A stretch of DNA of 64,000 bases from Salinigranum marinum (GTDB taxonomy: Archaea > Halobacteriota > Halobacteria > Halobacteriales > Haloferacaceae). Positions 1-18,432 of this stretch are shown in pieces. Location of the stretch: NCBI RefSeq assembly GCF_024228675.1, contig NZ_CP100461.1, positions 3,841,398-3,905,397 on the forward strand, read 5' to 3'. Each line of letters starts with the position of its first letter. The first letter of the stretch is position 1. The translations under genes and the position numbers were made by a program. The notes below the pieces were generated by a model. That model was not told the origin of the DNA. It was given only the letters and a program-made list of their open reading frames with translations, and searched no databases.

Positions 1-1344
1 CTCAACGGCGAGTCGGTCCGCACGTTCTCGCCGGACGGCACGGAGTTCTCCCGGGTGTTCGTCGCACAGCTCGAAGACAACGAGCAGAACACGGTGAACG
101 TCATCGTGCGCGACAGCGCCGGCGGTGTCGAATCGCGCCAGATCACGATCACGAAAGACGGCGTCGGCCCGTTCATCGGCTTCGAGTCGCCGTTCCAGAG
201 CCAGCTAGGGTCGCGGCCACCGACGCAGGCGTCCGAGACGAACTCGCGGCTGACGTTCGCGGGCAGTTTCGAGGACATCACCGGCGTCGAGACGATCGCG
301 ATCGAGCGGCGGCACTTCTACACGACCCTCAACGAGGAGCGGGTCGCGACGTCGAACCAGCAGCTCAGCGACCCCGGCTCGTCGTTCTCGATGGACGTGT
401 TCCTCGGCTACGGCCGGAACGAGATCACGATCACGATGACCGACCGGCTACAGAACACCCGGACGTACACCATCGACTTCAGGATCAACGACCGGAGCGC
501 CCCGGAACTCTCGATGGACGAGACGCCCACGGAGATCCGGAACAGCTCGATCGTTCTGTCCGGGCAGGCCACGGACAACGTGCAGGTGGACGAGGTGACC
601 TACTCGATCGAGGGGAGCGTCGACTCCGCGACGCTCGTCGTATCCGAAGGTGACGGTGCGGATCCGGCTCGGCAGTCGATCGACTTCGAACAGCGAGTCC
701 CGCTCGGGCCCGGCGAGAACGTCATCCGCGTGACCGCCCGCGACGTCTCCGGCCGGACGTCGACCGTGCGCCGTACCGTCGTCTACAACGACACGGTCGT
801 CCCCGAGATGTCGATCGCGAGCGCCGTCTCGGAGTCCGGCAGCGTCCGGTTCGACGGCTTCGTTCGGTACGGCTCGTTCAAGCGCGTCTCGGTCGAAACG
901 GTCGACCCCGAGACGGGCGAGACGCTCGACTTCAAACAGGTGTACCAGGGTGAGACGACCGGCGGGAACGTGAGCTTCGACGAACAGATGGCGGCGGTCG
1001 AAGACGGACCGACGGAGGTCGTCGTCCGCGCCGTCGACAACGAGGACGAAGAACACGTCCGGAGCGTGACCGTCGAACCCGGGAGCCGGGTCGACGCGAG
1101 TTCGGCGTCGAACGAGGAGTCGGACGGAGCCGGCGAGCGTGACGGCGACGCCGGGACCGAGAGCGACAACGCGAACGACGAGTCGGGTGGCGGAGACAGT
1201 GCGAGTAACGGCAACGGCGGCAGCGACAACAACAGCGGCGGGGCGACGTCGACGCCCACGGTCATCCCGGGCTTCGGAGTCGGTCACGCGCTCGTCGCCG
1301 CCGTCTCGGCCGCGCTGCTCTTGGCCCGACGCCGCAACCGCTGA
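1..1344 (+). CDS. PGF-CTERM surface protein with Ig-like repeats (5' truncated)
   Basis: The reading frame is open from the first base of the window, so the N-terminus lies outside. About 360 visible residues look like tandem beta-sandwich (bacterial Ig/cadherin-like) repeats, with recurring phrases such as ITITKDG, ENVIRVTARD and TEVVVRAVDNED. A Ser/Asn/Gly/Asp-rich, disordered, probably glycosylated linker follows. The end is TPTVIPGFG, a hydrophobic helix and ARRRNR, the tripartite PGF-CTERM signal that archaeosortase A recognises to anchor proteins at the haloarchaeal surface. It therefore acts outside the cell, as an adhesin or S-layer-associated protein. It converges on the tubulin-like locus; whether the two are functionally linked cannot be told from here. 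Confidence 0.85.
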   Translation, partial: LNGESVRTFSPDGTEFSRVFVAQLEDNEQNTVNVIVRDSAGGVESRQITITKDGVGPFIGFESPFQSQLGSRPPTQASETNSRLTFAGSFEDITGVETIAIERRHFYTTLNEERVATSNQQLSDPGSSFSMDVFLGYGRNEITITMTDRLQNTRTYTIDFRINDRSAPELSMDETPTEIRNSSIVLSGQATDNVQVDEVTYSIEGSVDSATLVVSEGDGADPARQSIDFEQRVPLGPGENVIRVTARDVSGRTSTVRRTVVYNDTVVPEMSIASAVSESGSVRFDGFVRYGSFKRVSVETVDPETGETLDFKQVYQGETTGGNVSFDEQMAAVEDGPTEVVVRAVDNEDEEHVRSVTVEPGSRVDASSASNEESDGAGERDGDAGTESDNANDESGGGDSASNGNGGSDNNSGGATSTPTVIPGFGVGHALVAAVSAALLLARRRNR

Positions 1345-1584: not shown

Positions 1585-4500
1585 TCAGCCGTGGTCGTCG
1601 ACGAGGCCCCAGACGGTTCCGTCGTGGTCGGGTACGTAGAGCGCCCCGTCGACCGCGGCGACGCTCGATTCGATCCGCGTCCCGGCGTCGGTGGCGTCGT
1701 CCCAGAGCGACTCGCCGGTCCGGCAGTCGAGCGCCGCCAGTCGACCGCCGTTGGTTCCGAGGAAGAGCCCCTGGCCGGCGACCGTCGGCGACGAGATGGT
1801 CATCGCGTCGAGGTCAGTCTCCCAGCGTCGCTCGATTCGCCCCTCGAGGTCGAACGCGGTGACGACCGCACGCGGCGAGGCCGACGCGCCGTCGTCGTCG
1901 TCGGTCGGCCCGCGCGCCTCGGCCGAGACGCGCCCGCCGACGTTGCTCACGACGTACGCCCGCTCGCCGTGGACCGCGGCGGACGAGACGATCTCGTCGC
2001 CCACCGCCTCCTTTCTGCGGACCGCGCCGCCCTCGGCGTCGACCACGTACAGCGTGCCGCTGCGGTTCCCGACGAGGAGCCGGCCGTCCGCGACCGCCGG
2101 ACTCGCCCAGATCGGTTCGGGGCCGAGCCGCGTAGACCAGCTCCCCGCCCCGCTCGCGGCGTCGATCGCGTGCAGCGTGCCGTCGTCGGTCGCGACGTAG
2201 ACGGTGCCGTCGTCGACGGCCGGCGCGGCGAGCGTGATCCCCGCTCCGGCGTCGTACGGCTCGTCCCACACTGCATCGCCGTTCCGTCCGTCGAGCGCGT
2301 GGACGGTCCCCTCGCCGCCGGCGACGAACAGTCGACCGTCGGCCACTGTCGGTGACGCGGTCGCCACTGAGCCCGGTCCGGTCACGCGTCGATCGGCGCG
2401 CCACGCTTCCCGAGCGCGCGGGCCGTCGGCGAGTCGGTAGCCGATGACCTCTCCCACCGACGTGACGACGACGACCGTGTCACGGACGACCGCGGGTGAT
2501 GCGAACAGTTCCACGTCGGCCGCCGCCCCGGGCGTCGCGACCACCTCGTGATCGCCGGCCGAGCGGGAGATCGCGTGGAGCCGCCCCGCCCTGGTGCCGA
2601 CGACGAGGCTGTCGCCCAGCACCACGGGCGTCGTGGTGCACTCCTCGCCGAGCGCCACCGGCTCCCAGGCGTGCGCCGGCGTTCGGACGGTCCGCCCGAC
2701 GCCCGCGACGCTCCCGGTGTTCGCGGCGTCGTACCGAAACTGCGAGAAGCTGGCGTCGCCCACCTGGGCTGTCGGATCGACGCCGGCGGTTCGCTCCGGC
2801 TCTTGGGCCGGACTCCCCACGGAGGGAGTCAATTCGTCGGCGTTCCCGTCGGTCGCTTCGTCGGCGGGTTCGCCGTCCGACGCACTCGCCTCCGACCGAC
2901 CGACCCCGGCCGGCTCCGTGGTCCCGACGGAGACCACGTCCGATCCCGTCGTGGACTCTGTCGCCGCGTCGCCGTCGACCGGGGGTTGCGTGTCCGGTTC
3001 GTCGCCCACCGTGGCAGGCTCTCTGGCGGTCGGTCCGTCGGCGTCCGTCGCGGGCTCACTGTCGGTCGCCGTCGTCGTCCGCCGACTCCCAAAAGGGTCG
3101 ACATCACCGCCGCTGTCGTCGCCCCCCTGAACGTCGAGCCGGTCGACGGTTCCGTCGTCGCCATCGTCACCGGCCGGATAGAGGAAGTCGTCCGCGTCGC
3201 CGTCGTCGGTCGCCGGGGCCGCGTCGTCGCGTCCCGGTTCCGGCCCGCTGTCGCGTCCCGGTTCCGGCCCGCTGTCGCCTCCCGTGCTCTCTCCCCGGCC
3301 GTCGGCGCTTTCCCGCCGCGATCCGTCGGCCGGCGCTCGGGAGTCGCCGCGCGTCCCCGTGCCGGTGTCGTCCCGACGGCCTTGCTTGGGTTGTCCCTTC
3401 ACGAGTTCGTCCATCATTCCGCTCCCGCTCGGCTCGTCGGCGTGCTGTTGGACGAGTTTGCGGTTCGACGGCGAGAGTCGGAACTCGGTGTCTGGAACCC
3501 GCTGTTCGAGCGTGAGGAGCGCGTTGGCCAGCCGCTTCGACCGCGGAGACGGCCGCGAGTGTGCGCTGAGGGCTTCGAGCGCCTCCGGGCCCTGGCTCGC
3601 GGCGCGGTGGGGATTCGTCTCGACCCGTTTCTCGAAGCTCCCGACGTCGAACCCACCGCTCCGTCGGCTCGCCGGTCCGGCGACACCCGTCCCGCCGACC
3701 GAGCCACGCGTCGATGTCGACGTCGACCGCGATCGGGACGGGGATCGTGATCGCCCCGACCGGCGGCGGTTCCCGCCGAGGGCGTCGCCCGCGAGGATCA
3801 CACCAGCGAGGCCGACGACGCCGACGACCGCGACGACGCCACCGAACATGAATAGATCCAGCACGAGCGCCCAGTTGCCGATCAGGAGGCCGAACACCAC
3901 GCCGGCCACCTGCGACGCGACGACGAACACCACGGCCGCGCCGATCGCGCCGGCGAGCAGCCCCGCCGCCTGGACCGCGAGCGCGGTCCGCGCACGGGTC
4001 GACTGCGACCCCGCTTCGAGCCCGAACTCGTCGAGCAGAGTGGCGATGTCGCGTTTCGCGCCGCCGTCACCGCCCGTCCGCTGGAGGGCGACGAGTTCGT
4101 CCACCGCCGCACTCGCCCGATCGGAGGGCGTCGGCCCCCCACCGCGACTCCCGCCGCCCAGGCCGGGGATCGAGAAGCCGGTGAGCCCGGTTACGGTTCG
4201 TTGGACCGGCGGGGTGGAGACGAGCGCAACCCCGATGACGACGGCCGACACGACGAGCACGTGCCAGCTGGTGAAGTCGAAGAGGTACTGTGGAACCGCG
4301 ATCGGGAGGACGCCGTTCGCCGTCTCGGCGAGCGGGAGGTAAAAACCCTGGACGCGCGTCAGCGCCGGGAGCAGCGTCTCTGTCCCCGCTCTGACGACGA
4401 CGAGCAACACCGCGAGCGGGACGAGCACGAGCGCCGTGAGGACGGCGTTCCGCTGGCCGGCGGCCGCACCCGGCACCGACGCCTCCTGTTCGTCGATCGC

Positions 4501-5208
4501 CAGCCCGAGTCTGTCCTCCGCGCCGGCGTCGACGAGCGCGCGCCGCATCGCCGCCGCGCCGCCGCCGACGCCCGTGGCTGGAACCGCCTGTTTCAACTCG
4601 CGGAGCCGTCGCCGTGCGAGCACCGCCCGCTGGCCGCGCGTCACCGTCACGCGGTCGGTCGACCCGGGGACGACGACCGCGTCGACGCCGGCGTGGGTTC
4701 CCGTCTCGCCCGAGTAGGTGACCGCGATGTCGAGGCTGTCGTCGAACGCCCGCCGGAGATACGACACGACGCCGAGTGCCCGGGCCTCGTCGGGCGTTCC
4801 GATCCTGATCTGTCCCTCCGCGTCGAGGAGGTACTCGAGATCGGCCACCGGAACGTCGGGGCTGGCCTCCCCCGCGGAGCCGATGGACTCGTAGAGCCGC
4901 TGTTCGTAGCCGGCGTCGTCTTCGACGCGCCAGCCGACCTCCTCGATCTCACGTTCGAGCGTCGATTTGAACGACTCGATCGGCGTCGCGGTGCCGGGGT
5001 CGAACTCGTAGTCGGCCATGAACTGCTCGGAGCCGCTCCGGACCAGCTTCACGTAACAGCGGAGCCCGTTCCGGCCGGGGTCGTAGTAGAGCAGCAGGTC
5101 GGATTTGAAGTCGCGCTTGACGGACTCTTCGGTCACGTCGGCCGCGCTGCCGCTCGAATCGAACTGGAGCCGTCCGGTGCCTGCGGAGTAGATTCTGAGT
5201 CTGGTCAT
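1585..5208 (-). CDS. Multi-pass membrane protein with C-terminal PQQ-like beta-propeller
   Basis: The start chosen is the ATG at 5208 (MTRLRIYSAG), two bases after the upstream gene's stop; an upstream in-frame extension is Arg/His-rich and implausible. The product is about 1,207 residues. Residues 1-250 form a soluble alpha/beta region. Hydrophobic helices lie near 254-273 and 316-334, with a second hydrophobic block near 409-474. A basic Arg/Ser stretch (about 480-500) and a long acidic Gly/Ser/Asp linker follow. Residues of about 818-1207 hold repeated blades of the form DGTVYVATDDGTLHAIDAASG, typical of PQQ/BamB-type propellers, which usually serve as protein-interaction scaffolds. It is last in the tubulin-like locus. 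An odd number of membrane helices would put the soluble N-terminus and the propeller on opposite sides, but I cannot fix the count by eye. Confidence 0.8.
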   Translation of the reverse strand: MTRLRIYSAGTGRLQFDSSGSAADVTEESVKRDFKSDLLLYYDPGRNGLRCYVKLVRSGSEQFMADYEFDPGTATPIESFKSTLEREIEEVGWRVEDDAGYEQRLYESIGSAGEASPDVPVADLEYLLDAEGQIRIGTPDEARALGVVSYLRRAFDDSLDIAVTYSGETGTHAGVDAVVVPGSTDRVTVTRGQRAVLARRRLRELKQAVPATGVGGGAAAMRRALVDAGAEDRLGLAIDEQEASVPGAAAGQRNAVLTALVLVPLAVLLVVVRAGTETLLPALTRVQGFYLPLAETANGVLPIAVPQYLFDFTSWHVLVVSAVVIGVALVSTPPVQRTVTGLTGFSIPGLGGGSRGGGPTPSDRASAAVDELVALQRTGGDGGAKRDIATLLDEFGLEAGSQSTRARTALAVQAAGLLAGAIGAAVVFVVASQVAGVVFGLLIGNWALVLDLFMFGGVVAVVGVVGLAGVILAGDALGGNRRRSGRSRSPSRSRSTSTSTRGSVGGTGVAGPASRRSGGFDVGSFEKRVETNPHRAASQGPEALEALSAHSRPSPRSKRLANALLTLEQRVPDTEFRLSPSNRKLVQQHADEPSGSGMMDELVKGQPKQGRRDDTGTGTRGDSRAPADGSRRESADGRGESTGGDSGPEPGRDSGPEPGRDDAAPATDDGDADDFLYPAGDDGDDGTVDRLDVQGGDDSGGDVDPFGSRRTTTATDSEPATDADGPTAREPATVGDEPDTQPPVDGDAATESTTGSDVVSVGTTEPAGVGRSEASASDGEPADEATDGNADELTPSVGSPAQEPERTAGVDPTAQVGDASFSQFRYDAANTGSVAGVGRTVRTPAHAWEPVALGEECTTTPVVLGDSLVVGTRAGRLHAISRSAGDHEVVATPGAAADVELFASPAVVRDTVVVVTSVGEVIGYRLADGPRAREAWRADRRVTGPGSVATASPTVADGRLFVAGGEGTVHALDGRNGDAVWDEPYDAGAGITLAAPAVDDGTVYVATDDGTLHAIDAASGAGSWSTRLGPEPIWASPAVADGRLLVGNRSGTLYVVDAEGGAVRRKEAVGDEIVSSAAVHGERAYVVSNVGGRVSAEARGPTDDDDGASASPRAVVTAFDLEGRIERRWETDLDAMTISSPTVAGQGLFLGTNGGRLAALDCRTGESLWDDATDAGTRIESSVAAVDGALYVPDHDGTVWGLVDDHG

Positions 5209-5210
5209 TG

Positions 5211-7127
5211 TCAGCGTTCGAGGCGCTCGATGAGCTTGTCGGCTCGACGCAGGATGGTCGGCCGTTTCGTCGTGTCGATCGTGTAGTCCGCGTCGGTCTC
5301 CGGCGGCTCGTCGTTCGTGATCACGTACCAGAGGACGTAGACGCGTTCGAGGCCGAGCCCGCGGTAGAGCCACTCGAGTTCGTCTTCGAGCAGTTCGTCG
5401 TAGACGTACTCACAGAACTCCTCGTACTCGCGGGCCGCGAGCGAGCCCTCGTTTCGCTTCTCGAAGTCCGAGACGGCCCAATCGCCCATCGTCACGGCGA
5501 CGACGAAGTCCTTGTCGCGGTCGTCGCGGTACTGTCTGGCGAGTCGCTGGTACCAGCCGAGATACTCGTTCGAATCGGGTCGGTCGAAGTCGTTCTTGAC
5601 GTAGAACACGCCGTCGGAGTAGCTCCGGCTCCGGAGCGTCTGGCGGTCGAGGTCGATTCCGAGTTCGTCGGCGACCTCGCTCGCGGACTTCTCGCGACCG
5701 GGGTTGCGGACCACCTTGGCGTACGACGGCTCGTTGCCGCGGTCGATGATCGGCGCGATGAAGTCGTCGAGCGGGACGACGAAGACGATCCGGTCGGCGT
5801 GCTCGACGCAGTTGGCGACGGCGTCGGCGATGACGCTCCCGGCGATTGCCCGCCCGCGCTCGGACTCCTCGGAGAGCCGTCTGACCTCGTTGGTCGCCTC
5901 GGCCCACCCGTCGGTCGAATCGACCTCCGGGCTGCCGTAGCCGCCGCGGGAGCCGCGCCCGCCGCCGTCCGGCCCGTCGCTCTCGTCCTCGTGCTCCGAC
6001 TCGCCGTCGAGTTCCTCGCGGATCTGCTCGACCTCCTGGTCGACCTCGTCGGCGTCGCTGAACAGCGAGCGATCGCCCGCCGAACTCCCCCCGTCAGTCG
6101 CGGCGGTCTTCGGCGCGACCCGGTCGACGATGTCGTCGAGATGCTCGCCCGCGTAGTCGATGGTCTGGATCGACGTCTTCTCGGGGAACACCCCGCCGCG
6201 GACGTAGTTCATCCCGAGCAGGGAGATGGTGGTGGTGCCGGTCGCCGTCGGGAACTCGCCCTTCGAGATCATCCGGCTCAGGCTGTCGACGTTGCCGTCG
6301 TAGTTGAGCGCGACGTCGTCGTGTCCGAAGTCGAGCAGCGCGCGGTGGAGGCCGCCGAACGCGGCGCTCTTCCCGCTCCGCTGTGGGCCGAGCACGATCG
6401 TTCGGTTCTGGCTCTCGTAGCGCGTGAACCGCAGGAGTCCGCCGAGCAACAGCACCGAGCCGATGATGTCGACGAACAGCGCTCCCCCGACGAAGCCGTT
6501 GAACGCGAAGGGTTGGAGCACCCATCCCTCCGGATGGGCCTGCAGGATCGGGCTGTACGCGACGTGCGCCTCCACGAAGCCGAGGACGATCATGAGCAGG
6601 GCGAGCCTGAAGATCCACCGCGGTGCCCGGGGGAACTCCGCCCTGACGCCGGGGGTCACCGCGTCGCCGGCCGTCTGCGGGCGGATGCCGCCGAGCAGGA
6701 GGCCGAGCACGATTCCCGCGACGCCGACGATCGCCGACGCGGGGCCGAACCCGGCGATGAGCGGTTGAATAAGCAGTCCCTGCCCGAGCAGGATGACGGC
6801 GCTTCCGAGCCCGATCCCCCCGACCAGAATGAGTCCCTGGCCGCGCTTGAACGAGTCGAGCAACAGCGTCACGACGAGGCCGAGCGCGATCCCCGTCGGA
6901 AGGTAGTAGAACGTCTTTACGTCGACCCCCAAGATGTTGATCGCACCCCGGAAGAACTGCCGCACCTGCCCCCACGACTCCCAGCCGCGAGCGAGCATAT
7001 CGATCGAGAGGAACGCACCCACTCCAGCCAAGGCGACGTAGAGAAACAGTCGTTGCAGGCTCTTCCGGCGACGCCGCGAGAGGTTCAACCCCCCGAGCGG
7101 TCCGTCGCCCTGTCCTCGTGCCAACAT
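5211..7127 (-). CDS. Membrane-anchored P-loop GTPase-like protein
   Basis: The 638-residue product has about six hydrophobic helices in residues 26-233, followed by a soluble nucleotide-binding domain. GPQRSGKS at about 247-254 is a Walker A/G1 loop. TIDYAGEH at about 322-329 fits a Walker B/G3 (DxxG) motif. VTMGD after a hydrophobic strand sits where a G4 motif would be, but the canonical NKxD is absent. An acidic, Gly-rich insertion (SEHEDESDGPDGG) interrupts the domain. It lies two bases upstream of the propeller gene and 63 bases downstream of a paralogous gene that has lost the P-loop. A distinct GTPase is described as a genomic partner of one prokaryotic FtsZ/tubulin-like family; I infer that this is the counterpart. 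GTP rather than ATP as substrate is unproven. Confidence 0.75.
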   Translation of the reverse strand: MLARGQGDGPLGGLNLSRRRRKSLQRLFLYVALAGVGAFLSIDMLARGWESWGQVRQFFRGAINILGVDVKTFYYLPTGIALGLVVTLLLDSFKRGQGLILVGGIGLGSAVILLGQGLLIQPLIAGFGPASAIVGVAGIVLGLLLGGIRPQTAGDAVTPGVRAEFPRAPRWIFRLALLMIVLGFVEAHVAYSPILQAHPEGWVLQPFAFNGFVGGALFVDIIGSVLLLGGLLRFTRYESQNRTIVLGPQRSGKSAAFGGLHRALLDFGHDDVALNYDGNVDSLSRMISKGEFPTATGTTTISLLGMNYVRGGVFPEKTSIQTIDYAGEHLDDIVDRVAPKTAATDGGSSAGDRSLFSDADEVDQEVEQIREELDGESEHEDESDGPDGGGRGSRGGYGSPEVDSTDGWAEATNEVRRLSEESERGRAIAGSVIADAVANCVEHADRIVFVVPLDDFIAPIIDRGNEPSYAKVVRNPGREKSASEVADELGIDLDRQTLRSRSYSDGVFYVKNDFDRPDSNEYLGWYQRLARQYRDDRDKDFVVAVTMGDWAVSDFEKRNEGSLAAREYEEFCEYVYDELLEDELEWLYRGLGLERVYVLWYVITNDEPPETDADYTIDTTKRPTILRRADKLIERLER

Positions 7128-7151
7128 GTGTTATCCAACTTTAGTCATCGT

Positions 7152-7160
7152 TGATAAATC
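7152..7160 (-). promoter_or_regulatory. Probable TATA box for the P-loop membrane protein
   Basis: On the minus strand GATTTATCA is centred about 29 bases before the ATG at 7127, the usual distance for a nearly leaderless haloarchaeal transcript. It suggests that the last two genes of the locus can be transcribed separately from the first two. Confidence 0.5.
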
Positions 7161-7190
7161 CTTGCCGCCGTCTATCACGTCTGGATGACA

Positions 7191-8666
7191 TTACAGCCGT
7201 TTTAAGACTCGTTCGATTCCCTGTGGCCCCTCCTCGTTGTCGAACGAATCGTCGACGGGGACGACGTCACACCCGCCGATCCCGAGGATCTTCTGGCCGA
7301 CGAAGCCGGCGAAGTGGTCGCTGTCGAGCCGCGGGAGTCGTTCCGTCGTCTGCTCGTAGAAGCCGGAGACGCTGTTGGCTCCCGTTGCCACCACGAACAC
7401 GTCGGTCCGCGGGTGGCCGCGGTACGCCGCACACAGCTCGTTGTACCGCTTGATGTACTCGGGTTCGTCTCGGACGACCGCGGCGAACGACGTCTCGCCC
7501 TCCTCGAGCGCGTACTGGTTGAGGCGGTCGGGCACCGGGGCCAACAGCACGAGCGTGTCGGCGTTGGCCACGCGGTTGACGAACCGTGCCGGGTCGGACG
7601 CGACGAGCGCACGGAGCCCCGCGGGCACGAGGAGCGACAGCGGTCGCGACAGCAGGCTCCGAACCGTGCCGAGCGGCCCCGATTCACGGTCGATCCGCGC
7701 TTCGATTCGCTTGATGTCTCCCCGCGACGGCGGGCTGTAGCTGTTCGACTCGATGACGGTCCGCCGCGACAGCAGTCCCGGCTGTGTGAACCGGAAGCTG
7801 ACTGTCGACGGGCGGCTCCCGTCCACCTCGACGACGTCCGCCTCCGAATCCACGTTCTTCACGTTGGGGTAGAACGACGACCCCCCTTCGAGCGGGACCG
7901 CGTCGTACTCCCGCCAGGCGACCTGCATCGTCGCCGCGAGAAACCGCGTCTCGGCCAGCCGGCCGTCACCCTCGTCCGGGCGCACGACGAGCACGTCCGA
8001 GCGGTTGTCGTACTGGACGAACCAGCTCAAAACGACGAGGAACGCGACCGACGCCACGAGGTCGACGGCGAGCCCGTCAACGACGACCCCCACGGAGCCG
8101 AGCGATCCGCCGGTGACCGCGCCCGTCGCGCGGTCGACGACGATCGGGCTGTCGTACCGGAGGTGCCGCTCGACGAAGCCGACGAGGGTCGCGACGACCG
8201 CCGTCGCGTACAGCATCCCCGGGGCGAGCGGGAACTCCCGACGCCCCGTCTTCTTGTTCTGCTGCCCGCTGAGCACGCCGGCCCCGCCCGCGACGACGAC
8301 CCCGCCGAGGAGAAACGGCGTCAGCGCTACCCACGAGACGGTCCCGATCCACTTGTTCATGCCCGCGAGCGTGACGACGCCGACGGGCACCGCGGCCAGC
8401 AGGACGACGCCCTGGACGCGCTTGTAGTCGTCGAGGCCGAACAGCAACAGCCAGCCGACGACGAGCCCGACGGGGAACACCACCGCGACGTCGATGTCGA
8501 CGCCGAGCGTCGTGGTGACGAACCAGACGAGGTTGAACACCAGCTCCTGTTCGTCCCACGCCTCGCCGAGCATGCGCGTCACCGGGACGATGGTGACCAG
8601 CGTGACGACCACCGAGGCGACGACGAGCCGCCGTTCTGTCAGCAGCGAGTCCGTTCCACGCCCCAT
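7191..8666 (-). CDS. Multi-pass membrane protein, P-loop-less paralogue of the adjacent GTPase-like protein
   Basis: The 491-residue product aligns by eye with its 638-residue neighbour along its length. Shared landmarks are LGVD near residue 54 before a membrane helix, DDYKRVQG against DSFKRGQG, EFPLAP against EFPRAP, GFVERH against GFVEAH, and a last helix leading into QYDNRSDVLVVRP against RYESQNRTIVLGP. Where the neighbour has GPQRSGKS this protein reads RPDEGDGR, so the Walker A is gone. The FVVATGAN stretch near the end matches the neighbour's FVVAVTMGD. It is probably a non-catalytic partner or scaffold derived by duplication. It starts three bases after the stop of the tubulin-like gene, so the two are co-transcribed. 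Confidence 0.8.
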   Translation of the reverse strand: MGRGTDSLLTERRLVVASVVVTLVTIVPVTRMLGEAWDEQELVFNLVWFVTTTLGVDIDVAVVFPVGLVVGWLLLFGLDDYKRVQGVVLLAAVPVGVVTLAGMNKWIGTVSWVALTPFLLGGVVVAGGAGVLSGQQNKKTGRREFPLAPGMLYATAVVATLVGFVERHLRYDSPIVVDRATGAVTGGSLGSVGVVVDGLAVDLVASVAFLVVLSWFVQYDNRSDVLVVRPDEGDGRLAETRFLAATMQVAWREYDAVPLEGGSSFYPNVKNVDSEADVVEVDGSRPSTVSFRFTQPGLLSRRTVIESNSYSPPSRGDIKRIEARIDRESGPLGTVRSLLSRPLSLLVPAGLRALVASDPARFVNRVANADTLVLLAPVPDRLNQYALEEGETSFAAVVRDEPEYIKRYNELCAAYRGHPRTDVFVVATGANSVSGFYEQTTERLPRLDSDHFAGFVGQKILGIGGCDVVPVDDSFDNEEGPQGIERVLKRL

Positions 8667-8669
8667 CTG

Positions 8670-11600
8670 TCAGGACCGGTTGTCGGTCGCGCCGGATCCG
8701 TCACCGTCGGTGCTGAGGTCGGGGTCGGGCTCCGGCTCCGGTTCGGTGGTCGACCCGTCGGGTCCGTCGGCTCCCCCGGCGTCGGTTCCGTCCGTGGGAT
8801 CGCCCGCCGTCGACGCGCTCGCCGGGCCGCCGCCGCGGTCGCCGACGAGGTCGATCGTGCTCTCGAAGTCGGTGACCTCGACGTAGTTGGAGACGAGGTA
8901 CCGCCGGAGTTCGCCCTCGTTACTCGCGATGAGCCGGTTCCGGTCGTGGACGTCGTTCATGTTGAGCAGGTCGCGGCGGACGAGATACGCGCCGCGACCG
9001 TACTCACAGAGATCGGCGTCCTTCCCGTCGATCCCGTGGGTGTGCCGGACGATGACGCCCTCTTCGAGGGAGTTCTTCTGCTTGAGGTAGCGCGATCGGT
9101 AGCCGCTGTCGCCGGTGACCACGTCGATGTTGTCGAGGAAGACCCCGCCGACGAACGTCACCATCGAGAGGTCCCACGGCCCGCCGAAGCCGACGCAGTG
9201 TTGCTGGTAGCCGTCGCTGCCGGCCGGCGTCCAGATGTTGGCCCGGAGCTTGTCCTCGACCCGGTCGAGGCCGCCCGGACTCTCGCCCGTCTCGAACATC
9301 GGGCTCATGAAGACGGTCTTGAGCCGGTGTTGGTCGTACTGTGGGCTGGCCATCGAGCCGTCGTAGCGGTTCGGATCGCCCTGGATCGTCCGGGTCAAAA
9401 GCGGGAGCCGCTCGTCGGCGCTGGCGACGTTCCGCGCGAACTCCTCCAGTGACCGGAGCATGTTCCGCCGCTCGTTCGACTCCCAGAGCTTCGCCTCCCC
9501 GATGTCGTCGTACCGCAGGAGGGACTGGTCGCCCGCCGGCGGCACGTGCTTCGTGTAGGTGTACTGGTCCCGCGTCGGTGCCTCGAACGTCGTGTCCAGT
9601 TCGGTCGGCCCCGTCCCCCCGTGGGCGAAGCGCTTGCCGTCCTCGTCGATGAGCGTCCGGAGCTCGTCGTACCGCTGCTGTTCTCCCCGGAGTTCGTCGA
9701 GTCGGTCGGTGACCCGCCGTTCGACCTCCGCGACCGGCCCGCGGTAGGCCGTGTCGAACCCCTCGTACACGACCCCCGGCTCGCCGACACCGTCGGCGGA
9801 CGCACAGAGCCGGTCGAGGAGCGCCGACGCCGTCCGGTCGGCTACGTCGTCCTCCAACTCCGACCGGAGGTCGCCGGGGAACTCGGCGACATCGCCCGGC
9901 CAGGTCACCTTCGGTGTCCACTCGGGGAGGTGCCGCTCGATGACGTCAACGTCGAGGAACTCCGCCATCGTCGACGCCTTGATCTCGATGTCGTGGAGCG
10001 CGCTGCGGTACGACTCCTCGATATCGTCGAGGAGCCGCGCCCGCTCGTCGATCAGGTCGTCGGCGCGGGCGGCGAAGTCGGGGCCGATGAACGAGCAGTC
10101 GAACTCCTCGTCGAAGTCCGTCAGCGCCACCAGGTCGTTGTCGAGCGACGCCGCGGTGTACGAGTACTCCTCTTCGAGGTCGCCCGTCCCCTTGAGGAAC
10201 CGGGTGAACGTGCTGGACTCGATCTCCTCTTTCTTCAGCCAGTACGCCTTCGCCTCGCGCAGGCCGTGGTTGAGGTTGCTCTTGAGCTTGCTCGCGTCGA
10301 CCTCGTCGAGCCCGACGTCGCGGAGCCGGCTGTTGAGTTCGTCGAAGTCGGTGAAGGCAAACGGCGTGGGGTCGAGGTCGTCGGTCCGTTCGGCCTGGTT
10401 GATGTGGCTCACCGCCTTGTCGACGGCGTCGTCGAGGCCCGCCAGCAACGACTGGATACGCTCGGCGTTCTCGTCGAGCGAGACGAGCCGCTCGATGTCC
10501 CCTTCGACGCCCGTCCGCCACTCGCTCTGGCGCGCCTCAATGCGCGGGGCGAGCACCTCGCTGTCGAACTGATCGAGGCCGGCGAGCTGTTCTTCGAGGT
10601 CCTCGGTGTCGTTCGAGACCGTTCCCTGCGTGCGTTTGACCTCGGGGACGGTCATCGCAGAGTCGACGTTCTGGTCGAGCGCCGCACGCAGCCCCGTCTT
10701 GAGGTCCTCGTCCTCGACGAGGTGGACCGTCCGCAGCAGGTCGCTCCGGCGCTTGATCGCCTGCAACTCCCGACGGATCGTGCGTTCGAGCCGGCGGAGG
10801 ATCTCGTCGCCGGAGTACTGCTGTTCGACGGGCTCGAGTCCGCTCATCGCCGTCGCCGGCACCTCCGTGACGATCTCCTTGCGCAACTCGGCGTCCTTCA
10901 TCGTCTCGTTGCGGTCGCGGATCTGTTCCTCGCGCTGGGCGAGCGTCTGCCGCCACTCCAGCGCCGGCGTGTAGTCCAACTGCTCGAAGACGTCCTCCTC
11001 GAGCACGTCACGGAACTCCTCGAGCCGGCCGTGCAGGTCGCTCGCCTCGTCCGTGTCGAGGTTGAACAGTCCGCTCCGCGGGACGCCGCCCGAGGAGACC
11101 GCCTCGAGGTCCCGCGCCGCCTCCTCGCCGTCGAATTCCCGGCGGACGTACTCCTCGACGGCGTCGTAGAGGGCGTGTTCGGTCTCGAGCGCCTCGTTCT
11201 TCCCCTCGATGTACGCCTCGACGGCGTCCTTCGCGTCCTGCGTGTCGGCGACGGCGTACCGGAGGATCTGCGGCATTGCGAGCACGAACGGTGCGTGTTT
11301 CTGCGGCCCGCCGAGCATCGACGTGTTCATGGTGTCCACCATGTTCGACTCCATGTTCTGGTGGGCGATGATCGACTGGATGATGCCGTCGTAGAACTCG
11401 TCCATGTCCGGGTTATCCGCGATCACCGGCCCGAACGGGTAGAGGACGATGTTGTCGAACGGGTTCTTCTCGCCGTTCGACCCGGTCAGGTTCACGTACT
11501 CGAGCTCGGAGAGCACGGCGTGTGCGTTGGCACGTTCGTCCGTCGACTCGCCGCGGCCGGGCGTCACACCGAACAGGTGGATGCGGTTCGCGTCGGACTC

Positions 11601-12245
11601 GGTCGACAGTCGCTTGGCGATGTCGAGGAACATCCCCGACCCCGTCCCGCCGCCGATGCCGACGATGATGTAGACGTCGCCTTCGGCCTGCCGGATCACC
11701 TGTTTGAGCTGGGAGTTGTTCGCCCAGCCCGCGTCGAACAGCGCTTTCGACAGCGCCCGTCGCCTGATGACACCCTCCTTGTACTCGTTCAGCTCCGACA
11801 GCATCGCCTCGTTGGTGTTCGAGCCGATCCACCAGGCGTTCAGTCCCGAACCCGAGGCGACTTCGCGGACCGTCCCCTCGGCGGTCAGCCCCGCACGCGT
11901 CGTGTAGATCGAGTCGGTGTCCTCCAGCGGATTGATGTACTCGATCTCCGTCCAGATGTTCGTCGGTGAGCGACCCAGCTCCTCCCCCCGACGGTCGATC
12001 CGGTCGTTGAGTCGGTCGACGGTCACTAGGTCCTGTTCTTTCTCGTCCTCCGCCGTGTCGACCACGTACGCGCTGACCTCCTGGACGGTCCCCGACCGCT
12101 CCTCGAGGATCTCGTCGAGGATCCAGTCCCTGCTGAACATGTTGTAGACCACGGACTTCCCCGCCATCCCGAGCCCGATTATCGTATCGGGAAGCTGACA
12201 CCTGACCTGGTCGGTGGCCTTGTTTCCTTCGTTCGAGGTGGACAT
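8670..12245 (-). CDS. Large tubulin/FtsZ-superfamily-like GTPase
   Basis: The 1,191-residue product has an N-terminal Rossmann-type GTPase core. IIGLGMAGKSVVYNM at about 22-36 matches the first phosphate-binding loop of FtsZ. GGGTGSG at about 198-204, preceded by the strand VYIIVGI, is the tubulin/FtsZ signature (T4) loop. The canonical T7 catalytic NxDxxD is not evident. It is about three times longer than FtsZ or CetZ: roughly residues 380-900 are charged and coiled-coil-like, a further folded domain follows, and the end is an acidic Pro/Glu/Asp tail (PEPEPDPD). These features fit the divergent tubulin-like family (Pfam Tubulin_2/FtsZ-like) that has been proposed to drive membrane remodelling with a GTPase partner. 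It is first in the operon, with its own TATA box. Polymerisation and GTP binding are inferred only. Confidence 0.8.
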   Translation of the reverse strand: MSTSNEGNKATDQVRCQLPDTIIGLGMAGKSVVYNMFSRDWILDEILEERSGTVQEVSAYVVDTAEDEKEQDLVTVDRLNDRIDRRGEELGRSPTNIWTEIEYINPLEDTDSIYTTRAGLTAEGTVREVASGSGLNAWWIGSNTNEAMLSELNEYKEGVIRRRALSKALFDAGWANNSQLKQVIRQAEGDVYIIVGIGGGTGSGMFLDIAKRLSTESDANRIHLFGVTPGRGESTDERANAHAVLSELEYVNLTGSNGEKNPFDNIVLYPFGPVIADNPDMDEFYDGIIQSIIAHQNMESNMVDTMNTSMLGGPQKHAPFVLAMPQILRYAVADTQDAKDAVEAYIEGKNEALETEHALYDAVEEYVRREFDGEEAARDLEAVSSGGVPRSGLFNLDTDEASDLHGRLEEFRDVLEEDVFEQLDYTPALEWRQTLAQREEQIRDRNETMKDAELRKEIVTEVPATAMSGLEPVEQQYSGDEILRRLERTIRRELQAIKRRSDLLRTVHLVEDEDLKTGLRAALDQNVDSAMTVPEVKRTQGTVSNDTEDLEEQLAGLDQFDSEVLAPRIEARQSEWRTGVEGDIERLVSLDENAERIQSLLAGLDDAVDKAVSHINQAERTDDLDPTPFAFTDFDELNSRLRDVGLDEVDASKLKSNLNHGLREAKAYWLKKEEIESSTFTRFLKGTGDLEEEYSYTAASLDNDLVALTDFDEEFDCSFIGPDFAARADDLIDERARLLDDIEESYRSALHDIEIKASTMAEFLDVDVIERHLPEWTPKVTWPGDVAEFPGDLRSELEDDVADRTASALLDRLCASADGVGEPGVVYEGFDTAYRGPVAEVERRVTDRLDELRGEQQRYDELRTLIDEDGKRFAHGGTGPTELDTTFEAPTRDQYTYTKHVPPAGDQSLLRYDDIGEAKLWESNERRNMLRSLEEFARNVASADERLPLLTRTIQGDPNRYDGSMASPQYDQHRLKTVFMSPMFETGESPGGLDRVEDKLRANIWTPAGSDGYQQHCVGFGGPWDLSMVTFVGGVFLDNIDVVTGDSGYRSRYLKQKNSLEEGVIVRHTHGIDGKDADLCEYGRGAYLVRRDLLNMNDVHDRNRLIASNEGELRRYLVSNYVEVTDFESTIDLVGDRGGGPASASTAGDPTDGTDAGGADGPDGSTTEPEPEPDPDLSTDGDGSGATDNRS

Positions 12246-15618: not shown

Positions 15619-18432
15619 ATGACAGACAACAACAATAAGATCCGCGCTGTTGTACTCGCAGCGCTGATGGTTCTCTCCGTTTTCGCGGGGACCATCGCGT
15701 TTACCGGTACAGCGGCTGCGACTCTTAACAGCGTGTCCGGTGCATCTGCCGGAGACGTTACTGCTAACGCAGCAGGCACGACACACACGGTAGAGTTTAC
15801 AACTGAAATTCCCGCAAGCAGTACGGGCAACGTCGTAGAAATCGACTACGCCGCTGGTAATGTCACCAGTGTTAGTACTATCTCGCTCAGTGACCCTGAC
15901 GGGGGTACTAACGCGAGTGACGTGAGTGTTTCCTCGTCGCCGTCCATTCCTGCAAGTGGGACGACAACGTTCCAGTTCGAACTGGACGATACTGCTGACG
16001 CTGACCCCGAGACGGTCACTGTTAGCTTCGACGTCACGCACGACCTGTCGGCTGTCGGTGCAACGTCCGGCGTTGGAATCGATATCAACGACGGCGCCGG
16101 CGGCGCCACGGACGGCACCACTACGTTCGATGTTGTCGCTGACGACCGACCAGGTGGCACCATCACGGACACCGCGTACCTCGGTGAGTCGGGCGTCGAC
16201 CTCCGTGGCGTCTCGGGTATCTCGGGCGCGGCGGGCGACTCGGCGACCCTCTACGGTGTCGCCGGTGAGGCCGACGGCTCGACCGCCTCGGTCTCCGACA
16301 TCACGAACGCGGACATCTCCGAAGACAACGACTTCACCACCGGCGGGTACAGTACCGCCAGCGGTGACGACACCGTCGAACTCTCGGTCATCGAGCCTAG
16401 AGTCACCGACGCTACGATCTACCGGGGCAGCGACGACTCCGGCGCTGACGTCACCGACGGCTCCATCCTCACCTCCGACGACACGATCACCGTCGAGGGT
16501 GAGTTCAACTTCGAGGACGCCGAAGCTCTCGACATTACCATCGAGGACGAGGACGGTCTCGAAGTCCAGACCCAGCTGAGCGCCTCGCCCAGTCAGATCA
16601 CCACCTCTGGTGGCGATGTCACGTTCACTGGTCTGACCGACCTCGACACGGGCGAGTACACGGTCACGGTCGAGGGTGAGGACGACCTCGACAGCGCCTC
16701 GCGCTCGGCCACGTTCTCGATCCGTGACGAAGACCAGACCATCAACCTCGCCGAGTCGACGCTCACCAAGGGCGACAACGTCGTCGCCACGGTGACCGGT
16801 ACGCCCGGGCAGATCGGCCTCGTCCGCATCGCCCAGGACGACCTCGACGACGCGAACGGCACCGCGGACAACACCAACGCGTCGAACGTCTTCGCTAACA
16901 CCGGCGACGTCGTCGGCATCAACGGCACCCAGGACGTCGCGGGCTACTCGGGTGACGAGTACGTCGGCGCCTTCGTCGACCTCGACGACGGCGGCGAAGC
17001 TTCGGTCCGCGTCGACTCGAACTACCTCGACACTGCGACGATCGACGTCGAATTCGTCGAGACCGGCATCTCGAACGCGAACACGCCCCTCACGATCGGT
17101 GAGGTCGACAACGCGTTCACCAACGACTCGGACGCTGACGCCGAACTGACCGTCGAGGACAAAGAGATCAACATCACGTCCGCCCCGAGCGTCGTCCGCA
17201 TCGGCGAGGAGTTCACCCTCGAAGGGCAGGCTCCCGAATCTGACGACGTGAAGGCGTACGCCCGCATCGACAACGACTACGTCCCGCTCGAGGACGACAA
17301 CGGTGACGCCTCGACGGACAACGTCGACTCCGACGGCAGCTTCTCGGTCGACATCGACTCGGGTCAGTACATCGACCTGCCTGACTCGTACCGCATCGCG
17401 CTCGTCGCCGACCCGACTGACGACGTCGCCACGGCGACGCTCGGCGTTACGGGCCCGGGCAACTCGGTCGACTCGGACGACTACTCCGAGTTCGAGACGA
17501 CGACCACCACGACGGTCCGGACGGTCGAAGGTGACCTGACGGCTCAGCTGTCGACGTCGGCCATCGCGGCAGACGTCGGTGACGAAGTCACCCTGTCGGG
17601 CACGGCGCTCGGCCAGGGCGACGAAGTGCTGGTCTACATTGTCGACCCGCGCGGTGACTTCCTCGCACTGAACGCCACGGACGGCGTCGCCACGATCGAC
17701 GTGGACGAAGAGGAATTCGAAGAGGACTACGCGATCTTCAACCGGCGTGGGACGTACACGTTCATCATCGTTGGCCAGGGCCGCGACGGCCAGTTCAACG
17801 ACGGGAACGAGCGTCTCGACCCGACTGACCTGAGCGGACTCAGCACGACGCCGCAGCAGGCGGTCGCGCTGATCAACGACGAGTACACTGGCGCGGGCTC
17901 GGACGACCAGCTCGTCGAGCTGACGCTCCAGGCGCAGAACCCGCAGCTGACGATCGACGACTTCACCACCGACGGGCAGGTCGCCCAGGGTGAGGTCACG
18001 ATCTCGGGCACCTCGAACCGCGAAGACGAGACGACCGTCTTCATCGAGGTCCTGGGTCAGAACGACAACGTCGTTGCATCCCAGGAAGCCGAAGTCAACG
18101 GCTCGAACAGCGAGTGGGAAGCCACGCTCGACATGTCGGACGTCGAGACGGGGACCTACACGCTGCGCGCTGACGACGACGAAGCATCGGCCGAACTCGA
18201 GTTCGAGCTGGTGAGCGAACTGAGCACGCCGACGGAGACGCCGGCTCCGGACACGGAGACGGAGACGCCGGCTCCGGACACGGAGACGGAGACGCCGGCT
18301 CCGGACACGGAGACGGAGACGCCGGCACCTGAGACGGAGACGACGACGTCGACGTCGACGCCCGGCTTCGGTGCGATCGTCGCACTCGTCGCGCTCATCG
18401 CCGCGGCACTGCTGGCGATCCGCCGCGACTAA
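15619..18432 (+). CDS. csg: S-layer major cell surface glycoprotein
   Basis: The 937-residue product forms the cell-wall lattice. The start MTDNNNKIRAVVLAALM leads into a signal peptide ending FTGTAAA (about residue 34), the conserved leader of haloarchaeal surface glycoproteins. The mature chain is acidic and beta-rich with repeated Ig-like modules and several N-glycosylation sequons (for example NGT and NAS). A threefold APDTETETP repeat, the likely O-glycosylated spacer, precedes STPGFG, a hydrophobic helix and AIRRD: the PGF-CTERM anchor processed and lipid-linked by archaeosortase A. The order matches the S-layer proteins of Haloferax and Halobacterium. Early codons are less GC-biased than those of the neighbours. 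A hairpin plus T-run follows the stop. Confidence 0.95.
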   Translation: MTDNNNKIRAVVLAALMVLSVFAGTIAFTGTAAATLNSVSGASAGDVTANAAGTTHTVEFTTEIPASSTGNVVEIDYAAGNVTSVSTISLSDPDGGTNASDVSVSSSPSIPASGTTTFQFELDDTADADPETVTVSFDVTHDLSAVGATSGVGIDINDGAGGATDGTTTFDVVADDRPGGTITDTAYLGESGVDLRGVSGISGAAGDSATLYGVAGEADGSTASVSDITNADISEDNDFTTGGYSTASGDDTVELSVIEPRVTDATIYRGSDDSGADVTDGSILTSDDTITVEGEFNFEDAEALDITIEDEDGLEVQTQLSASPSQITTSGGDVTFTGLTDLDTGEYTVTVEGEDDLDSASRSATFSIRDEDQTINLAESTLTKGDNVVATVTGTPGQIGLVRIAQDDLDDANGTADNTNASNVFANTGDVVGINGTQDVAGYSGDEYVGAFVDLDDGGEASVRVDSNYLDTATIDVEFVETGISNANTPLTIGEVDNAFTNDSDADAELTVEDKEINITSAPSVVRIGEEFTLEGQAPESDDVKAYARIDNDYVPLEDDNGDASTDNVDSDGSFSVDIDSGQYIDLPDSYRIALVADPTDDVATATLGVTGPGNSVDSDDYSEFETTTTTTVRTVEGDLTAQLSTSAIAADVGDEVTLSGTALGQGDEVLVYIVDPRGDFLALNATDGVATIDVDEEEFEEDYAIFNRRGTYTFIIVGQGRDGQFNDGNERLDPTDLSGLSTTPQQAVALINDEYTGAGSDDQLVELTLQAQNPQLTIDDFTTDGQVAQGEVTISGTSNREDETTVFIEVLGQNDNVVASQEAEVNGSNSEWEATLDMSDVETGTYTLRADDDEASAELEFELVSELSTPTETPAPDTETETPAPDTETETPAPDTETETPAPETETTTSTSTPGFGAIVALVALIAAALLAIRRD
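18244..18324 (+). repeat. Three perfect 27-base tandem repeats in the S-layer gene
   Basis: A 27-base unit beginning GCTCCGGACACGG recurs three times without change and keeps frame, encoding APDTETETP each time; a diverged partial copy follows. It forms the spacer just before the membrane anchor. Perfect identity at the DNA level suggests recent slippage and likely length variation between strains. Confidence 0.9.

Follow-up and report, generated by a model that had tools for sequence, protein, structure and literature searches.

The tubulin-like protein FtsZl1, together with the GTPases encoded beside it, forms the closest described counterpart of the locus reported here. In the sections of Makarova and Koonin (2010; PMC2875224) cited here, FtsZl1 operons contain vWA and kinase genes and predicted GTPases, which are membrane-associated in archaea and make up one family with intact Walker motifs and TxKD, and a role in membrane remodelling is proposed for these operons. 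The DO-GTPases are described in the cited sections of Kaur et al. (2020; PMC7159879) as a TRAFAC family whose Walker B motif contains a glutamate; 38% of systems carry a pair of paralogous copies, tubulin and HSP70 occur as partners, and a role in conflict is predicted there. In the literature that we located, FtsZl1 systems have been studied by genome comparison only, and the contact between tubulin and membrane is left open there. The window analysed here, a stretch of 64,000 nucleotides from the chromosome of the haloarchaeon Salinigranum marinum, contains two neighbouring genes whose products the original prediction took for membrane GTPase-like paralogues, one active and one inactive, and we confirmed both open reading frames, coding for proteins A (638 aa) and B (491 aa), in place, length and minus-strand orientation.

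A and B belong to a four-gene operon with the order FtsZl1, B, A, C (Table 1), a context that the original prediction had missed, as it had the altered G4 motif of A. The FtsZl1 stop codon and the start of B are 3 bases apart, and the A stop codon and the start of C are 2 bases apart; the wider gap between B and A could possibly hold a separate promoter for A and C. FtsZl1 of the window reaches 37.8 bits against the Pfam Tubulin_2 cut-off of 27, and its GGGTGSG nucleotide loop is present both by motif and in an alignment with 11 relatives. C matches PQQ_2 at 1.4e-31, and its N-terminal domain is conserved and adjoins A, or the single-copy relative of A and B (S), in nearly all loci. We place the system among the FtsZl1/GTPase operons that Makarova and Koonin (2010) described: an FtsZl1/Tubulin_2 gene adjoins B, A and B are membrane-associated through six predicted helices each, and the operons in the cited sections of that account share with this one the FtsZl1 partner, the adjacency of the genes, an archaeal membrane P-loop GTPase and, in some cases, vWA or kinase neighbours. 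The Ig-like protein encoded next to C, whose reading frame may start before the window, is a possible accessory to the operon; another likely surface protein is encoded elsewhere in the window.

Table 1. Positions of the genes and other features discussed, in the window and in related loci
Feature	Locus	Position	Strand	Remarks
FtsZl1, tubulin-like, 1191 aa	window	8670..12245	-	first gene of the operon; Pfam Tubulin_2
B, 491 aa, six-TM pseudo-GTPase	window	7191..8666	-	G1, G3 and G4 all gone
B-A gap, 63 bases	window	7128..7190	-	sole sizeable gap of the operon
A, 638 aa, six-TM GTPase-like paralogue of B	window	5211..7127	-	
C, about 1207 aa	window	1585..5208	-	N-terminal domain, then TM helices, then C-terminal PQQ-type beta-propeller; used in the comparison of C proteins
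Ig-like, PGF-CTERM-anchored surface protein	window	55..1344	+	Glucodextran_B, PGF_CTERM; convergent with the operon
Likely surface protein, 937-aa ORF	window	15619-18429	+	PGF-CTERM end, weak Ig-like match
C protein compared	L073	7321-9057		
C protein compared	L096	13317-16868		
C protein compared	L167	16710-19850		
HSP70/vWA/J-domain neighbours	L063	6284-8347; 11687-13375		
HSP70/vWA/J-domain neighbours	L129	13409-15466; 1352-3139		
Variant paired locus	L066 (G202)	5552-9294		A with altered motifs
Split FtsZl1	L210	10190-13216		Methanogenium cariaci

The components around A and B vary between loci. The FtsZl1 loop reads GGGSGSG in the single-copy loci L070, L073 and L145, the exact GGGTG motif is also missing in several other loci of the family, and in L210 FtsZl1 is split over three ORFs, probably because the gene is broken or its sequence contains errors. 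The C proteins compared have a common N-terminal domain and differing ends, either a PQQ beta-propeller or carboxypeptidase-regulatory/PEGA domains; the N-terminal domain has no Pfam match and is possibly a diverged GAP1. HSP70, vWA and J-domain (DnaJ) proteins are encoded between or beside the paired genes in L063 and L129, and the vWA and J-domain proteins bear fused carboxypeptidase-regulatory-like domains; Ig-like proteins with Big_7, Big_13 or Glucodextran_B domains are found near the paired loci L062, L096 and L167, and a weak kinase match at L185. These neighbour genes support a link to both the conflict and the membrane-remodelling ideas.

A and B are paralogues, each consisting of a six-TM part and a cytoplasmic domain of the P-loop-GTPase fold. 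Hydropathy predicts six TM helices in each protein, which, with the N terminus inside, would make the G domain cytoplasmic. In BLASTP the TM parts of the two proteins align along 207 residues at 29% identity (E = 4e-15), and the soluble parts give a further, weak match. Profile comparison gave a probability of 99.6% for the TM domains and of 97.3% (E = 2.4e-11) for the soluble domains; set against the soluble domain of single-copy relatives, that of B scored 98.2% and that of A 99.8%. Mismatched controls, in which the soluble domain of B was set against a TM domain, remained at or below 0.1%, so that a chance likeness of hydrophobic helices is ruled out and the similarity on which the original prediction had staked itself is significant in the soluble domain also. 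The paired motifs from which it started (DSFKRGQG/DDYKRVQG, EFPRAP/EFPLAP and GFVEAH/GFVERH in A/B) align with each other, and the alignment bears out GPQRSGKS in A alone, with RPDEGDGR at the corresponding position of B.

Structure models, for which no sequences from the genome-search or plasmid loci were taken, are consistent with this assignment. The AlphaFold2 model of B, built from 23 sequences, has a mean pLDDT of 84.8 and a pTM of 0.78, and beyond the TM part its strands and helices come in the order of a G domain, with no P-loop; that of A has a pLDDT of 79.3, and the helices were modelled in both. Foldseek placed EF-Tu and YcjX at the top of the PDB matches of B and a Rag complex chain, Rab5 and SR-beta lower, the matches being weak (best E 2e-3) though with a probability of 1.00. 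The best fold match of A is the GTPase YcjX (PDB 6nz5/6nz4; 7.8e-5), with 13% identity and TM-scores of 0.24 and 0.32, and a sequence search of solved structures returned GTPase matches that were weak only.

The nucleotide motifs were compared in 17 paired haloarchaeal loci, namely the window, twelve obtained through genome searches and from one plasmid, and L167, L168, L171 and L185, which came from a scan of named genomes with FtsZl1 as bait; a search for related loci with B alone as query found nothing, and an alignment of FtsZl1 served better. A of the window has the P-loop GPQRSGKS at residue 247, the G3 motif DYAGE at 324 and, at 546, TMGD in place of TxKD; B has none of Walker A, Walker B and TxKD. 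The P-loop GxxxxGK[ST] is found in B at 0/17 loci, and G3 and the G4 lysine are also missing at 17/17, so the loss is conserved in the orthologues of B, as the original prediction had proposed to check, and its active/inactive pair is supported on sequence grounds. In A the P-loop is kept at 16 of the 17 paired loci, the exception being L066, and also in the orphan A of L136. Over these 18 A proteins (17 paired plus the orphan) the position of the G4 lysine is occupied by methionine in 12, by phenylalanine in two and by the original lysine in four, and the G4 aspartate is kept in all 18. Single-copy or third-type relatives have G1, the DxxG of G3 and [TS]KxD in 45/45 cases. The Walker B glutamate, present in A (DYAGE) and in nearly all single-copy relatives (DxxG[EQ]), is absent from B. 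With the G4 lysine changed in most lineages A itself is not a textbook GTPase, and its specificity for GTP is putative.

Three variant arrangements were observed. In L066 the P-loop of A reads GPHSSGRR, the G3 aspartate is lost too, and C is absent, its place taken by an ORF that overlaps the end of A and encodes a restriction endonuclease domain of the Mrr type, so that an active A is not always needed; FtsZl1 and B appear intact there. L136 (G295) holds an A-C unit in which no B or adjoining FtsZl1 was detected, and its A keeps a canonical TKAD G4 motif. L130, L132 and L134 have, besides A and B, a third paralogue with an intact P-loop and DHPGE that adjoins its own C-type gene; L130 also has two FtsZl1 genes.

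In a maximum-likelihood tree of 72 proteins, all B proteins form one clade (support 100/99) and all A proteins another (98/88), and A and B group together apart from the singles (96/92), with long branches persisting in L066_A and L131. The G1, G3 and G4 columns were left out of this tree, which rules out that the B clade is an artefact of grouping by motif. The A and B clades being sisters, a single duplication was followed by loss of the motifs in B. Purifying selection acts on B as strongly as on A. By NG86 among three related loci, dN/dS was 0.23-0.28 in B, 0.28-0.33 in A and about 0.33-0.39 in FtsZl1, values that are approximate since dS is near 0.8-0.9. At 0.23-0.28 B is not decaying, and it is a monophyletic, selectively maintained pseudo-GTPase. 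Furthermore, the distance matrices of A, B and FtsZl1 correlate (r 0.84-0.90, Mantel p 2e-4), which fits their co-inheritance as one operon and is by itself no proof of contact. The family is present in roughly a tenth of the sampled genomes of the order (33/293 and 30/293 in genome searches) and also in methanogens; most loci are single-copy, the spread is patchy and three records place the system on plasmids.

Gene order and motifs are partitioned between the two paralogues. B directly follows FtsZl1 at 17/17 paired loci and A directly precedes C at 16/17, and the order is FtsZl1-S-C in single-copy loci with all three genes. The cytoplasmic TM2-TM3 loop carries a D..K..Q motif of which all three residues are present in B at 17/17 loci; singles have D and K in 32/32 and Q in 30/32, and A has Q in 11/18 and K in 15/18. 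B has kept the loop and the FtsZl1 side, and A the nucleotide motifs and the C side, which looks like divided labour. From this gene order and motif partition we infer that B docks FtsZl1 and that A is a switch that reads C or is read by it.

The reading to which we give about an even chance is that one six-TM GTPase has been split, with B as FtsZl1 anchor, A as C-coupled switch and the two in a complex. The ancestor would have been a single six-TM membrane GTPase working with FtsZl1, whose work was divided after one duplication. B, without nucleotide motifs, would most likely provide FtsZl1 with a fixed anchor in the membrane or a subunit to dock on, and A, with its P-loop and DxxG switch, most likely a nucleotide-driven switch coupled to C, presumably by contact. 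A and B would probably bind each other by the TM and G-domain surfaces with which the ancestor self-assembled, and an A-B heterodimer is plausible. The signal would then run from C, setting the nucleotide state of A, to the control of B as it holds or nucleates FtsZl1 at the membrane. That the pair is kept at 17 distinct loci points to a membrane switch in two parts that would serve a cytoskeleton on which little work exists. Weighing against this reading are the loss of the P-loop of A and of C in L066, the A-C unit of L136 with no B detected, the changed G4 lysine in most A proteins and the weak E-values of the fold matches of B. We put forward only tentatively the stronger form of this idea, in which the GTPase/pseudo-GTPase heteromer would be a nucleotide-controlled membrane receptor or nucleator for the tubulin-like filament, with docking and switching placed on two duplicated genes.

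As to what the whole system does, it is possible, if doubtful, that it acts against invaders in the manner of DO-GTPase/tubulin/HSP70 conflict systems, with FtsZl1 assembling on activation and C or its replacement serving as a variable sensor or effector. In the cited sections of Kaur et al. (2020; PMC7159879), predicted conflict systems combine paralogous GTPase pairs with tubulin, HSP70 and vWA genes. Among the paired loci, L063 has HSP70 and vWA genes and L129 has J-domain and vWA genes; also in favour are Hsp70/GrpE on a Haloplanus plasmid, the Mrr-type nuclease that replaces C in L066, and the patchy, partly plasmid-borne distribution. However, A, B, FtsZl1 and C have no PADLOC match, on which ground a known defence family was rejected, Pfam detects no GAP1 domain in C, and the window locus has no recognised effector. 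This reading bears on what the system does and can stand alongside the split-GTPase mechanism.

That mechanism is itself contested by a reading in which B is an independent scaffold of FtsZl1, and A and C form a separate GTPase module in the same operon, with no A-B heteromer. FtsZl1-B and A-C are collinear in some paired loci, as in the window, and they often form separate transcription units on opposite strands, as in several relatives; the orphan A-C unit of L136 and the B-A gap of the window point the same way. We consider this unlikely, since A and B nearly always lie within the same few kilobases (17 pairs, compared with a single orphan A and not one orphan B) and descend from one protein whose gene adjoined both FtsZl1 and C.

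Also rather improbable is a role in membrane remodelling or vesicle machinery, as suggested for FtsZl1 operons by Makarova and Koonin. The membrane GTPase, vWA and protein kinase neighbours of FtsZl1 in the cited sections of that work (PMC2875224) and the six-TM and surface Ig-like proteins near our loci are in its favour; on the other hand, a system carried by only about a tenth of the sampled genomes is not a basic function. Finally, that B is the functionless product of a decaying pseudogene, as its lack of any nucleotide motif might suggest, is refuted by its intactness at 17 distinct loci, its dN/dS of about 0.25 and its invariant D..K..Q loop.

Returning to the split-GTPase reading, its position among known GTPase pairs can be defined. 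Both Rag GTPases bind nucleotide, and SR-alpha and SR-beta, which are not close paralogues, both bind GTP. The analogy with Rag-type GTPases and the SRP receptor drawn in the original prediction holds for regulated pairs of GTPase-fold subunits at membranes, but it is a poor fit, as B has lost G1, G3 and G4 where both of their subunits bind nucleotide, and they are not known to have a tubulin-like partner. YcjX is the best fold match of A, yet the similarity is weak, and we know of no six-TM domain or tubulin partner in it. Septin pseudo-GTPases (PMC10731463) are also found in hetero-oligomers in which some paralogues have lost nucleotide handling and become structural; septins, however, are themselves the filament-forming proteins and have no six-TM part, whereas here the filament candidate is the separate tubulin-like protein. 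DO-GTPases share with A and B the Walker B glutamate (in A), the frequent presence of two paralogous copies per system, the tubulin/HSP70 association and, in some, TM helices. A and B had no match over the gathering cut-off to the Pfam DO-GTPase families (PF19993, PF19975), and the single-copy relatives tested reached at most 25.6 bits against the DO-GTPase2 cut-off of 27, so that the pair is likened to a DO-GTPase pair and not formally assigned to that family. The cited sections of Kaur et al. (2020; PMC7159879) do not describe the two copies as active and inactive, nor do those of Makarova and Koonin (2010; PMC2875224) include a duplicated pair with one fully degenerate member. The natural division of one gene into a half that binds nucleotide and a half on the tubulin side indicates the task of each part, predicts that B binds FtsZl1 and that A binds nucleotide and C, and offers a clear example from prokaryotes of a pseudo-GTPase that is retained as the constant partner of its active paralogue.
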